Assembly: GCF_001263395.1 (NCBI RefSeq)
Contig: NZ_CP011786.1
Location: 186,001-250,000 of the forward strand
Reading direction: 5' to 3'
Length of the DNA: 64,000 nucleotides
DNA from: Bifidobacterium actinocoloniiforme DSM 22766
Lineage (GTDB): Bacteria; Actinomycetota; Actinomycetes; Actinomycetales; Bifidobacteriaceae
Shown here one piece after another: positions 43,135 through 47,750 of the stretch. The position numbers were made by a program, and so were the translations under genes. How positions within the stretch are numbered: position 1 is the first letter of the stretch; each line of letters begins with the position of its first letter. Under the pieces are notes generated by a model. The model worked only from the letters and a program-made list of their open reading frames with translations, searched no databases and had not been told where the DNA came from.

Positions 43135-43150
43135 ACCTTCGGCGGTGGGG

Positions 43151-43181
43151 TGTTAAGCTAGAAATACAACAGTTTTTAACA
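43151..43181. promoter_or_regulatory. AT-rich control region before the M20-MFS-M20 locus
   Basis: TGTTAA (43151-43156) and TTAACA (43176-43181) form an inverted repeat with a 19-bp spacer in an AT-rich island, markedly different from the GC-rich surroundings. It lies about 130 bp before the first M20 gene and just after uppS. It may be a promoter with a regulator site; no regulator gene is adjacent. Confidence 0.35.
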
Positions 43182-43313
43182 TACTGATTGATGGAAATCA
43201 AGTGTCATTATCAGCGTGTCCGTTCCCGCGAGGCGTATGGTGATAGCACAACGCGGTTCGGGATACCGTGCATGGGGGATCCGCAACCGCGACGATTGCG
43301 AAGGAGCGCCGTC

Positions 43314-44744
43314 ATGGACGATAAGCAAAGAATCATGCGGATCATCGAGGATAAGCGGCAGGAATTCATCGAGGCCGCCGATCACATCTGGGAGACCCCC
43401 GAGACCCGTTTCGCGGTCAAGGAGTCGGTCCAGCAGCACTATAAGGTGCTGGAGCAAGAAGGCTTCTCGATTGAGAAGGGCGTGGGCCATATGGATTACG
43501 CTTACGTGGCCACCTGGGGATCTGGCAATCCGGTGATCGGCATCACCGGTGAGTACGACGCACTGGGCGGCCTGAGCCAGAAGGCAGACGTAGGCGAGCA
43601 CATACCTGTCGTCCCCGGCGGCAACGGCCAGGGCTGCGGTCACAACATCCTGGGCATGGCCGCGGTCGCTGGCGGCGTCGGCATCAAGACATTCATGGAG
43701 GAGAAGGGCCTCAAGGGCACCATTAAGATCTTCGGCTGCCCGGCCGAGGAGTCGGGCTACGGCAAAGCGTTCATGGCCCGCGACGGTGTGTTCGATGGTC
43801 TGGACCTGGCCCTGTCCTGGCATCCCATGGATGTCACCTCCGCCTGGGGTTCCTCCAGCCTGGCCGTCATCCAGGCCTACTTCGACTTCACCGGCATCCC
43901 GGCCCATGCGGCCGCCGCGCCCGAACAGGGCCGCAGCGCATTGGACGCGGCCGAGCTGATGAACACCGGCGTCCAGTACCTGCGCGAGCACATGATTGAT
44001 GATGCCCGCGTGCACTACGCCTTCATTGACGCCGGTGGCGAGTCGGCGAACGTGGTCCAGTCCCACGCCAGGCTTTACTACTTCGTGCGCGCTCCCAAGA
44101 TGGAGCAGACCGAGGACCTCTTCAAGCGGGTGCGGAAGATCGCTCAGGGCGCCGCCCTGATGACTGAGACCGAGCTCAAGGAGGAGTTCGACGCAGCCTG
44201 CTACAACTACATCCCCAACCATCCGCTGACCGAGGCGATCGACCGCAACCTAGACATCGTGGGCCCGCTGCCCCTGACGCAGGATGAGCTCGATTACGAG
44301 CGGCGATACACCGATACGGTCTCGCCCTCCGGCAAACAACAGGTGCTGGCCCGCACCCAGGCCGCATTCCCCGACCTGCCCGCCGATGAGATCAAGTGGA
44401 TGGCCGAGTCGACCATCGCCTTGAAGAAGTACCCCCTGCACTTCTCTTCGAAGGCGTCCGGTTCCACCGATGTGGGCGACGTCAGCTGGCAGGCTCCCAC
44501 CGCGCAGTTCACCGGCGGCTTTGAACCCCAGGGCACTTCCGCGCACTCCTGGCAGTGGGCGGCTAATGGCAAGTCTTCGGTGGCTCACAAGGGGCTGCTG
44601 GCGGCGGGCAAGACCCTGGCGTTGACCGCCTACGACGCCCTGACCGACCCTGAATTGGTCGAGCGAGCCAAGGAGGACTTCGATAAGACCTTCGAAGGGC
44701 AGACCTATAGCCCGGTCATTCCAGCTGATGTGATGCCCCACTGA
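43314..44744 (+). CDS. M20 family amidohydrolase, AbgB/IAA-conjugate hydrolase-like, copy 1
   Basis: A 476-residue metallo-aminoacylase-type enzyme. Metal ligands of the M20 fold are in GITGEYDALGG, GCGHN (107-111), PAEESG (143-148) and SWHPMD (His170). The layout, with the dimerisation insert between, matches the AbgB (p-aminobenzoyl-glutamate hydrolase subunit B) and plant-type IAA-amino acid hydrolase group, which cut N-acyl amino acid amide bonds. No AbgA partner is present. ATG 43314 follows AAGGAG at 7 bp. It and copy 2 are nearly the same over long stretches and flank one MFS carrier. Confidence 0.85.
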   Translation: MDDKQRIMRIIEDKRQEFIEAADHIWETPETRFAVKESVQQHYKVLEQEGFSIEKGVGHMDYAYVATWGSGNPVIGITGEYDALGGLSQKADVGEHIPVVPGGNGQGCGHNILGMAAVAGGVGIKTFMEEKGLKGTIKIFGCPAEESGYGKAFMARDGVFDGLDLALSWHPMDVTSAWGSSSLAVIQAYFDFTGIPAHAAAAPEQGRSALDAAELMNTGVQYLREHMIDDARVHYAFIDAGGESANVVQSHARLYYFVRAPKMEQTEDLFKRVRKIAQGAALMTETELKEEFDAACYNYIPNHPLTEAIDRNLDIVGPLPLTQDELDYERRYTDTVSPSGKQQVLARTQAAFPDLPADEIKWMAESTIALKKYPLHFSSKASGSTDVGDVSWQAPTAQFTGGFEPQGTSAHSWQWAANGKSSVAHKGLLAAGKTLALTAYDALTDPELVERAKEDFDKTFEGQTYSPVIPADVMPH

Positions 44745-44930
44745 CATTTGCCCAAGGCGCGGGTCCGGACCTACCCTGCGAGGTGGTTCCGGGCCACGCC
44801 CTAGTCAGAGTTAGGGGTGGGGCCTCCTGGATGGTGGGGGGGGTCCCGAGAGAGATGAAAGGGTCCGGTTGGGCCCTACTGAGTGTGCCGCTTCAACGGC
44901 GCCCAGGACATCATGGAGAGACGAATACCG

Positions 44931-46139
44931 ATGGAACGCAAACAATCCTCGAGAATGGCGAGTGGAACCCTCATTTTCTCGCTAATGGCTGGTTACTCGA
45001 TCGTGTATATGGACAAGAACATGATCTCGACCGCCATCATCCCTATCTCCGAGCAGTATCACCTGGATTCCGGGCAAACGGGCATCATCATGTCCGCTTT
45101 CTTCCTGGGTTACTCGCTTATGCAGATTCCGAGCGGATGGTTGGCTGATAAGCTCGGCGCCAAGCGTGTGCTGATGGCATCGATGGCCATCATCGGCGTG
45201 TTCAGCTACCTGTTCGGCATCGCCAACGGTCTGGCCTTCTTCATCGCCGTACGATTCTTCGCCGGCATGGGCCACGGCGGCTACCCGCCGTCTTGCTCCA
45301 AATCGATCGCCGAGAACTTCCCGCAAGAGCGGCGCACCTTCGTGCAATCCCTGATTTTGTCCACCTCGGGCATTGGTGGCATCCTGGCCTTCACGTTGGG
45401 TGCCAACCTGATCTCCGCCAACTGGCACCTGGCTTACGGTGTGCTGGGCACCCTCTACCTGCTGGCCTGCCTGTGCATCCTGATTTTCGTGCCGTCCAAG
45501 CCGAGGGAGCCAAACGTCGACACCGCGCCCGGCGAGAAGAAAGTCGGCTTCCTTGAGGTCCTGAAGAACCGCAACGTCCTGGTCCTCTTCCTGGCGATGC
45601 TGCTGCTCAACATCCTGCTGTACGGCAACATCTCCTGGATGCCCACCTACATCAAGACAACCTTCCACCTGTCAATCAGCCAGACCGGCCTGCTGCTGGC
45701 GGTCAACGCGATCTTCTCGACCGCCGCTACCATCTACGCCGGCCAGCTGCTCTCCAAGGTCTTCCTGGGCCGCGAGAAGATGGCCATCATCGGCGCCACG
45801 GTGCTCAGCGCCCTCCTGGTCATCGGTTTCGTGTACTCCAAGAATCTGTGGATTTCGCTTGTGCTGCTGATTATGGTCTCTTGCGTCTCGGTGGTGGCCT
45901 TCACCGGCATCTTCACCTGGCCCCACAAGATCATGGATCCGCGCATCATCGGATCCTCGATCGGCGTCGTCAACACCGGTGGCACTCTTGGCGGCTTCCT
46001 AGCCCCCATGATTATCGGCTTCCTGGTCAAGGCCGCGGGCGGATCCTTCGTCTGGGCCTTCACCTTCATGGCCGCGGCGTCCATCGCCGCTGGCCTGATG
46101 GTCCTCTTGGTCAAGGCCCCCAAGACTGCCGCCAAGTGA
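44931..46139 (+). CDS. MFS transporter, anion:cation symporter type
   Basis: A 402-residue, 12-helix carrier starting MERKQSSRMASGTLIF. The helix 2-3 loop reads GWLADKLGAKRV, and MDKNMISTAIIPI in helix 1 with RFFAGMGHGGYPPSCSKSIAE in helix 4-5 is typical of the ACS family, which imports organic anions such as hexuronates, phthalate, tartrate and N-acyl amino acids. ATG 44931 follows GGAGAG at about 9 bp. It lies between two M20 amidohydrolases, so its cargo is probably the amide they hydrolyse or one product. A 186-bp spacer precedes it and a hairpin follows it. Confidence 0.85.
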   Translation: MERKQSSRMASGTLIFSLMAGYSIVYMDKNMISTAIIPISEQYHLDSGQTGIIMSAFFLGYSLMQIPSGWLADKLGAKRVLMASMAIIGVFSYLFGIANGLAFFIAVRFFAGMGHGGYPPSCSKSIAENFPQERRTFVQSLILSTSGIGGILAFTLGANLISANWHLAYGVLGTLYLLACLCILIFVPSKPREPNVDTAPGEKKVGFLEVLKNRNVLVLFLAMLLLNILLYGNISWMPTYIKTTFHLSISQTGLLLAVNAIFSTAATIYAGQLLSKVFLGREKMAIIGATVLSALLVIGFVYSKNLWISLVLLIMVSCVSVVAFTGIFTWPHKIMDPRIIGSSIGVVNTGGTLGGFLAPMIIGFLVKAAGGSFVWAFTFMAAASIAAGLMVLLVKAPKTAAK

Positions 46140-46147
46140 TGTACCCA

Positions 46148-46199
46148 CGGCGGCGGGCAACGACGCCCGCCGCCGCGTTCGCTGTCATACCCTTATATT
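46148..46199 (+). terminator. Hairpin after the MFS gene, followed by a -10 box for the second M20 gene
   Basis: CGGCGGCGGGC (46148-46158) and GCCCGCCGCCG (46165-46175) form a perfect 11-bp stem with a 6-base loop 8 bp after the MFS stop. A TATATT box at 46194-46199 follows, 31 bp before the second M20 start codon. Together they suggest that the second M20 gene can be transcribed separately. Confidence 0.65.
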
Positions 46200-46230
46200 G
46201 CATGTCATCATGGTCAACAAGGAGGTTCAT

Positions 46231-47658
46231 ATGGATGATAAGCAGCGGATCATGCAAATCATTGAGGAGGAAAAGGACGAATTCATCGAGGCGGCCGACC
46301 ACATCTGGGAGACGCCGGAGACCCGTTTCGCGGTCAAGGAGTCGGTCCAGCAGCATTATAAGGTGCTGGAGAAGGAGGGCTTCTCGATTGAGAAGGGGGT
46401 CGCCCACATGGACTACTCCTACATCGCCAGTTGGGGTTCGGGCAAGCCGGTGATTGGCATCACCGCGGAGTATGACGCTCTGGGTGGTCTGAGCCAGCAG
46501 GCCGATGTGCCCGAGCCCACGCCGGTAGTTGAAGGCGGCAACGGTCAGGGCTGCGGCCACAACATCTTGGGCGCCGCGGCCCTGGCGGCGGCGGTGGGCG
46601 TCAAGACCTTCATGGAGGAGAAGGGCCTCAAAGGCACCATCAAGCTCTTTGGCTGCCCGGCTGAAGAGTCCGGCTATGGTAAGGCATTCATGGCCCGCGA
46701 TGGCATCTTCGACGGACTGGACGCGGCTCTGACCTGGCATCCCATGGACTTCACCCAGGTGTGGGCCAACTCCAGTTTGGCGGTCATCCAGGCCTACTAT
46801 GACTTCGCCGGCGTGCCCTCCCATGCTTCGGGAGCCCCTGAACTGGGCCGTAGCGCCCTGGATGCCGCCGAGCTGATGAACGTGGGCGTGCAATTCCTGC
46901 GAGAGCACATAATCGACCCGGCCCGCGTGCACTACGCCTTCATCGATGCCGGTGGCGAGTCGGCGAACGTGGTCCAGTCCCACGCCAGACTCTACTATTT
47001 CGTGCGAGCCCCCAAGCTTGGGCAGGCCAAGGAGATCTGGGACCGGGTGACCAGGATCGCCCAGGGCGCGGCCATGATGACCGACACCAAGGTCACGATG
47101 GAGATGGACTCGGCCTGCGCTAACTACATCCCCAACCACCCGCTCTCAATCGCCATGGACAAAAACCTGGACATCGTCGGGCCCCTCCAGCTAACCGACG
47201 AGGAGATGGACTACGAGCGCAAGCTCGCCGAAACCGTCCCCGATTCCGGCCCGCGGAAGCTGGAGCGCATCCAGGCGAGCTTCCCTGATATGCCCGATGA
47301 TGAGGCCCGGCAGCTGGCGGATTCGCCGATGTTGCTTAAAAAGCTCCCCCTGCACTTCAGCGATAGCGCCGGCATCTCCACCGATGTGGGAGACGTGAGC
47401 TGGATTGCGCCGACCGCCCAGTTCAACGGTGGTTTCGAGCCGCAAGGCACCTCTCCGCACAGCTGGCAGTGGGTGTCCAATGGCAAGTCGTCCGTCGCCC
47501 ACAAGGGTCTGCTGATGGCTGGCAAGACGATTGCGCTGACCGCCTACGACGCCCTGACCGACCCCAATCTGCTCGCGAAGGCCAAGGCCGACTTCGATAA
47601 GACCATGGGCGGAAGCCATTACCAATCGATCATCCCCGACGACGTGATGCCTCGCTGA
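46231..47658 (+). CDS. M20 family amidohydrolase, AbgB/IAA-conjugate hydrolase-like, copy 2
   Basis: A 475-residue paralogue of copy 1. It keeps the same metal-ligand blocks (GITAEYDALGG, GCGHN, PAEESGYGK, TWHPMD) and the same end (ALTAYDALTDP...VMPR). Differences cluster in segments that could line the substrate pocket: VPEPTPVVEGG versus VGEHIPVVPGG, FTQVWANSS versus VTSAWGSSS, and VPSHASGAPELG versus IPAHAAAAPEQG. ATG 46231 follows AAGGAGG at 6-7 bp. Retention of two intact copies suggests two substrate ranges. A strong hairpin follows. Confidence 0.85.
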   Translation: MDDKQRIMQIIEEEKDEFIEAADHIWETPETRFAVKESVQQHYKVLEKEGFSIEKGVAHMDYSYIASWGSGKPVIGITAEYDALGGLSQQADVPEPTPVVEGGNGQGCGHNILGAAALAAAVGVKTFMEEKGLKGTIKLFGCPAEESGYGKAFMARDGIFDGLDAALTWHPMDFTQVWANSSLAVIQAYYDFAGVPSHASGAPELGRSALDAAELMNVGVQFLREHIIDPARVHYAFIDAGGESANVVQSHARLYYFVRAPKLGQAKEIWDRVTRIAQGAAMMTDTKVTMEMDSACANYIPNHPLSIAMDKNLDIVGPLQLTDEEMDYERKLAETVPDSGPRKLERIQASFPDMPDDEARQLADSPMLLKKLPLHFSDSAGISTDVGDVSWIAPTAQFNGGFEPQGTSPHSWQWVSNGKSSVAHKGLLMAGKTIALTAYDALTDPNLLAKAKADFDKTMGGSHYQSIIPDDVMPR

Positions 47659-47695
47659 TGCCCTGGTGATTCGCGCGGATCTCGCGTGGATCAGG

Positions 47696-47729
47696 AAGGC
47701 CCGCCCCCCGAACCAGGGGGGCGGGCCTT
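47696..47729. terminator. Bidirectional terminator between the M20 locus and GH32
   Basis: AAGGCCCGCCCCCC (47696-47709) and its exact complement (47716-47729) form a 14-bp stem with a 6-base loop between two converging genes. The 5' A pair and 3' T pair give a weak U/A flank; no longer T-run is present. Confidence 0.8.
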
Positions 47730-47750
47730 CGTCGTATGGCTCAGCCGCTA

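Follow-up and report, generated by a model that had tools for sequence, protein, structure and literature searches.

Two AbgB-like M20D amidohydrolase paralogues flanking an ACS-like carrier in Bifidobacterium actinocoloniiforme: a probable uptake-and-cleavage locus for an amide-linked organic anion

Among the closest described systems is abgABT of Escherichia coli, which imports and cleaves p-aminobenzoyl-glutamate through an enzyme that is an AbgA-AbgB heterotetramer, served by the carrier AbgT (PMC5082436). In CsAga, an M20D enzyme of Corynebacterium striatum, a cysteine can bridge the metals (PMC11511702). Here, we describe an AbgB-like locus of B. actinocoloniiforme DSM 22766, a bumblebee-gut isolate with a genome of 1,830,060 bases (PMC4582582). 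The window, the whole 64-kb stretch of DNA that was analyzed, spans 186001-250000 of the single 1,830,060-base contig.

Three intact genes follow uppS on its 3' side on the plus strand, encoding an M20 hydrolase (copy 1), an MFS carrier, and a second M20 hydrolase (copy 2) (Table 1). This bears out the hydrolase-MFS-hydrolase order proposed in an earlier interpretation of this DNA, the sequence-only reading. An in-frame ATG at 44913 is a possible alternative start for the carrier. The minus-strand genes 3' of copy 2 are a convergent scrB (GH32), followed by a LacY-type permease and a LacI regulator.

Table 1. Positions in the window of the genes and signals of the hydrolase-carrier-hydrolase locus
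Feature	Position	Strand	Remarks
uppS-to-copy 1 intergenic region	43135..43313	+	Core at 43140-43219 is AT-rich; AAGGAG, resembling a Shine-Dalgarno sequence, ahead of ATG 43314; putative promoter position
M20D amidohydrolase copy 1, 476 aa	43314..44744	+	Orthologue of the single hydrolase in 13 other genomes of the genus
Copy 1-carrier gap, 186 bases	44745..44930	+	GC-rich hairpins, z -1.55, not significant
MFS carrier, ACS-like	44931..46139	+	402 aa from ATG 44931; motifs MDK (helix 1) and GHGGYPP
GC-rich hairpin between MFS and copy 2	46148..46175	+	Terminator- or attenuator-like, without T run
M20D amidohydrolase copy 2, 475 aa	46231..47658	+	AAGGAGG Shine-Dalgarno; early-branching paralogue, only here and in B. 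xylocopae
15-pair GC hairpin	47695..47730	.	Between convergent copy 2 and scrB; z -4.4; without T run

Both hydrolases matched the Pfam M20/M20_dimer families and, over model positions 2-366, the TIGR01891 amidohydrolase model, with scores of 224 and 233 bits for the two copies compared with a cut-off of 153.75. They were rightly called AbgB-like, as both align with E. coli AbgB over their full length at 42-43% identity. Residues Cys-108, His-110, Glu-145, Glu-146, His-170, and His-411 are invariant in an alignment of 40 homologues, one of which is E. coli AbgB. Going by what is established for M20D enzymes, we take these to be the metal and catalytic residues; all of these predicted residues are present in both copies, in agreement with the earlier claim that the metal ligands are kept. 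No signal peptide is evident in the N terminus as read from the sequence (MDDKQRIM...). An AlphaFold model built from 7 sequences had a mean pLDDT of 39.5 and was discarded.

The end-to-end similarity to AbgB would be compatible with the use of a folate catabolite as in E. coli, that is, import and cleavage of p-aminobenzoyl-glutamate, but we consider this highly improbable. The E. coli enzyme is a heterotetramer, and a search of this genome with AbgA returned only the two AbgB-like copies, at 31-35% identity over half their length. The AbgT family (PF03806) is absent from the genome, the controls of that search being positive, and AbgB-like genes are widespread with other transporters. Because both AbgA, a subunit of the heterotetramer in E. 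coli, and AbgT are missing, p-aminobenzoyl-glutamate, one of the substrates first suggested, is not favored, and we class the locus as M20D with AbgB-like enzymes and not as an Abg system. What it shares with abgABT is the set of metal and catalytic motifs found in AbgB and the position of hydrolase genes beside a carrier. It differs in having an MFS carrier, two AbgB-like copies, and no adjacent regulator. Among the other substrates first suggested, nothing points to auxin conjugates in particular, and N-acyl amino acids are kept as an option.

The carrier scored 242 bits against PF07690 (MFS_1), above the cut-off. Its best NCBIfam model was TIGR00893 (D-galactonate/ACS), at 192 bits and thus below the cut-off of 395, and the solved structures nearest to it are VGLUT2 and DgoT. 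With its nearest models and solved relatives in the ACS family and the cut-off of the named subfamily not reached, ACS-like is the best reading of what had been termed an ACS-type carrier. DgoT, VGLUT2, and sialin, all ACS-family MFS proteins, aligned with it over most of its length. We used the alignment to match the carrier to Asp-46-Arg-47 and Glu-133 of DgoT, residues with known roles in that protein. The aspartate is kept in helix 1 with a lysine in place of Arg-47, whereas a histidine occupies the position of Glu-133, within a GHGGYPP motif that is common to all 11 of the 11 carriers checked. Judged by these alignments, the carrier resembles H+-coupled anion symporters.

We propose, with somewhat better than even confidence, that the locus serves to take up and cleave an organic anion containing an amide linkage. 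Its ACS-like carrier would import a carboxylate-bearing amide, either an N-acyl amino acid or else a dipeptide or a conjugate resembling one, and the cytoplasmic M20D amidohydrolases would then cut the amide bond, freeing an amino acid that could supply nitrogen or carbon. Because the hydrolases are cytoplasmic and the carrier is like H+-coupled anion symporters, uptake followed by hydrolysis to an amino acid would be the simplest reading. The proposal builds on the gene families, the intact catalytic residues, the conserved carrier-hydrolase linkage, and the age of and constraint on both copies; the direction of transport and the nature of the substrate we infer.

Linkage of the two gene types was assessed in relatives. 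Among 27 congeneric genomes, a close hydrolase was present in 15 and the carrier in 17; both occurred together in 15, the carrier only in 2, neither in 10, and the hydrolase only in none (Fisher p 8e-6 for co-occurrence, kinship ignored). The M20-MFS-M20 arrangement between uppS and scrB was found here and in B. xylocopae (L063), and only these two species of the 27 genomes have both copies. The order is uppS-M20-MFS-scrB in the asteroides group (L061 and L062), MFS-M20 between uppS and scrB in B. aemilianum (L064), and MFS alone between the same genes, without a close hydrolase, in G001 and G021 (L076 and L077). The hydrolase and carrier matches have adjacent coordinates in the other single-copy genomes.

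A second genus of the family has the hydrolase at another chromosomal place, beside the same carrier type (G051, G125, G126, and G130) or beside an SDF amino-acid/dicarboxylate symporter (G064, G123, G128, G130, G132, and G133). Neither carrier was seen in the inspected flanks of the hydrolase loci of G124, G127, G129, G138, and G142. Of the 33 hydrolase loci compared across the family, this carrier is the neighbor in 22 and an SDF symporter in 6. The association in relatives, on which the sequence-only reading had staked its proposal, is therefore not random. Three loci of the second genus (L069, L071, and L078) also have a small cluster of paralogues, fam2, whose 2-3 copies encode regulator-like proteins of about 115-158 aa. 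The cluster has an ABC ATPase on one side and, on the other, the SDF symporter or the hydrolase.

The tie between carrier and hydrolase is not strict, because G001 and G021 keep the carrier without a close hydrolase. These two genomes, and the 11 of 33 hydrolase loci without this carrier, are consistent with the genes being mere neighbors, the carrier serving an unrelated organic acid and the hydrolases acting as general cytoplasmic dipeptidases or aminoacylases. We regard this explanation as unlikely, as the adjacency recurs in different chromosomal settings and in both gene orders, and every congener with the hydrolase also has the carrier.

The neighbors of the hydrolase in relatives bear on the product of the proposed uptake and cleavage. 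In G051 and G125, the gene run comprises a YheO-PAS/HTH_22 regulator, MFS, M20D, serine dehydratase beta and alpha, and an ArgE/DapE deacylase, and this serine dehydratase run fits the release and deamination of an amino acid. The SDF and serine dehydratase neighbors favor an amino-acid product. Serine as a general answer was rejected. B. actinocoloniiforme has its own serine dehydratase operon, separate from the locus and with its own permease, and the serine link may therefore not apply in this genome. That stand-alone serine-use operon (L119, 4811-7867; 1.105-1.108 Mb of the genome) encodes serine dehydratase beta and alpha, then an amino-acid permease. A further region (L120, 3480-7109; 1.615-1.619 Mb) holds a permease, a 433-aa SDH_alpha-domain protein, and a YheO-PAS regulator, like E. 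coli cyuPA; the 433-aa protein resembles CyuA, L-cysteine desulfidase.

The two hydrolases had been described as near-identical, which is wrong: 358 of 475 residues (75%) are identical, and the DNA identity is 75.8%. Most of the differences fall at residues 326-375 and near the C terminus. Beside most catalytic residues they are below expectation, with a mild excess only around His-170 (7 compared with 5.2 expected within 10 residues), which leaves the suggestion that the copies differ in pocket-like segments weakly standing. dN/dS was 0.03-0.20 in all pairs compared, values that are rough, with synonymous sites near saturation in most pairs; they indicate purifying selection on both copies. 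Thirty alignment columns are fixed differently in the copy-1 and copy-2 groups. Because the paralogues are old, are both constrained, and differ at these columns, the functional divergence suggested earlier is plausible, although the differences are not crowded at the active site. The two copies may divide a substrate range.

The age of the paralogues follows from the hydrolase tree. The copy-2 genes of the two species form one clade (100/99), which lies outside another (100/99) that holds every copy-1-type gene, the B. aemilianum one among them; copy 2 thus branches earlier than copy 1 and its orthologues. We rejected a lineage-specific or recent tandem duplication. Placing the four genes of this species and B. 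xylocopae in one clade gave p-AU 0.0006, and dS between the copies, about 0.9, equals that seen between species. The B. aemilianum gene that follows the MFS gene was likewise rejected as an orthologue of copy 2 (p-AU 0.0007), being copy-1-like; B. aemilianum thus carries a copy-1-type hydrolase (L064, 5809-7239) 3' of the carrier, where copy 2 would be expected. As for gene conversion, third-position identity is patchy but without a long converted block, the longest identical run being 41 bases, and this explanation was also set aside. In a tree of glycyl-tRNA synthetase, B. xylocopae is the sister of this species, the two stand beside the pair that has only the carrier, and B. aemilianum falls outside the genus. 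The history is either a duplication that predates this group of bee bifidobacteria, followed by repeated loss of copy 2, or acquisition of copy 2 from an unsampled relative.

Since M20 enzymes dimerize, and the two copies lie on either side of a single carrier gene and have 30 group-fixed differences, they could be imagined as a single hetero-oligomeric enzyme, like AbgA plus AbgB, instead of two enzymes. This is improbable: copy 1 occurs alone in 13 congeneric genomes, and a copy-1-type gene occurs alone in B. aemilianum, which shows that copy 1 can do without copy 2.

The second genus shares the copy-2 state at 15 of the 30 group-fixed columns and the copy-1 state at 8, and has neither state at the remaining 7. 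Identity to the G051 hydrolase is 66% for copy 2 compared with 62% for copy 1. Copy 2 therefore looks like the more conservative copy by these comparisons. Copy 1 would be the derived form, found in the majority of locus-bearing bee bifidobacteria, and copy 2 an older form retained in two species. On a more speculative reading, which we hold less likely than not, copy 1 and its orthologues would have become specialized for an amide from bees or pollen at an early stage of bee bifidobacterial evolution, with copy 2 keeping the ancestral activity and surviving only in two species that use both substrates.

The regulatory signals first assigned to the locus fared unevenly. The proposed control region before copy 1 is indeed AT-rich (40% GC at 43140-43219 compared with about 60% around it), but the upstream region is not conserved beyond close relatives, and no conservation was found across this species, B. 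xylocopae, and the asteroides group. For copy 2, the hairpin stands, as B. xylocopae has one of different bases at the same place. The TATATT box (46194-46199) does not: it has no counterpart in B. xylocopae, and a σ70 promoter scan, which yielded nothing above chance, was empty there. An Rfam search gave no match at the locus, and a riboswitch was rejected. What had been called a strong shared terminator is a very stable hairpin that has no T run. Given its position between the convergent copy 2 and scrB, it could serve both genes as a bidirectional terminator.

Together, these data describe a locus of an ordinary catabolic type, whose interesting feature is that two species retain a second paralogue that is old and under constraint. 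The sequence-only reading was mostly correct in what it observed, apart from overstating how similar the copies are, and its interpretation is broadly plausible. Hydrolases of the AbgB type are widespread, and annotation often assigns them to folate-catabolite use; here they occur without the partner subunit and carrier of that pathway. The locus offers a compact, carrier-linked case, with two enzymes that diverged long ago, in a culturable bee symbiont for finding the true substrate of stand-alone AbgB-like enzymes, and could also reveal what such bacteria obtain from amides of the host or of pollen. The literature on bee bifidobacterial amidohydrolases and stand-alone AbgB homologues held nothing decisive.

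Among more distant enzymes are the M20D aminoacylases and carboxydipeptidases, with HmrA of Staphylococcus aureus (3RAM) and CsAga as examples. The copies share M20D membership with them by sequence (HmrA, E 8e-33), and the cysteine in the CGH motif of the copies is as in the metal bridge of CsAga (PMC11511702); HmrA and CsAga are shorter (about 390-400 aa compared with 475) and more distant in sequence. The human Xaa-Arg dipeptidase PM20D2 shows similarity in its central and C-terminal regions (E 2e-22), but it is eukaryotic and distant, and its substrate is not implied for the copies. AbgB-like genes are carried, with varied transporters, by many plasmids of rhizobia and others. Inspection of five plasmid regions found one MFS-then-AbgB-like pair and one tandem pair. 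The former, on an Agrobacterium plasmid (NZ_CP139999), has an AbgB-like hydrolase (45% identical) directly 3' of an MFS gene, but the MFS protein is only 27% identical and the hydrolase is single. The latter, on a plasmid of Bartonella sp. HY328 (L141, 2524-5431), is an independent doubling of AbgB-like M20 hydrolases beside ABC substrate-binding proteins. Given these two cases, neither the pairing with an MFS carrier nor the duplication of AbgB-like genes is unique to this locus.
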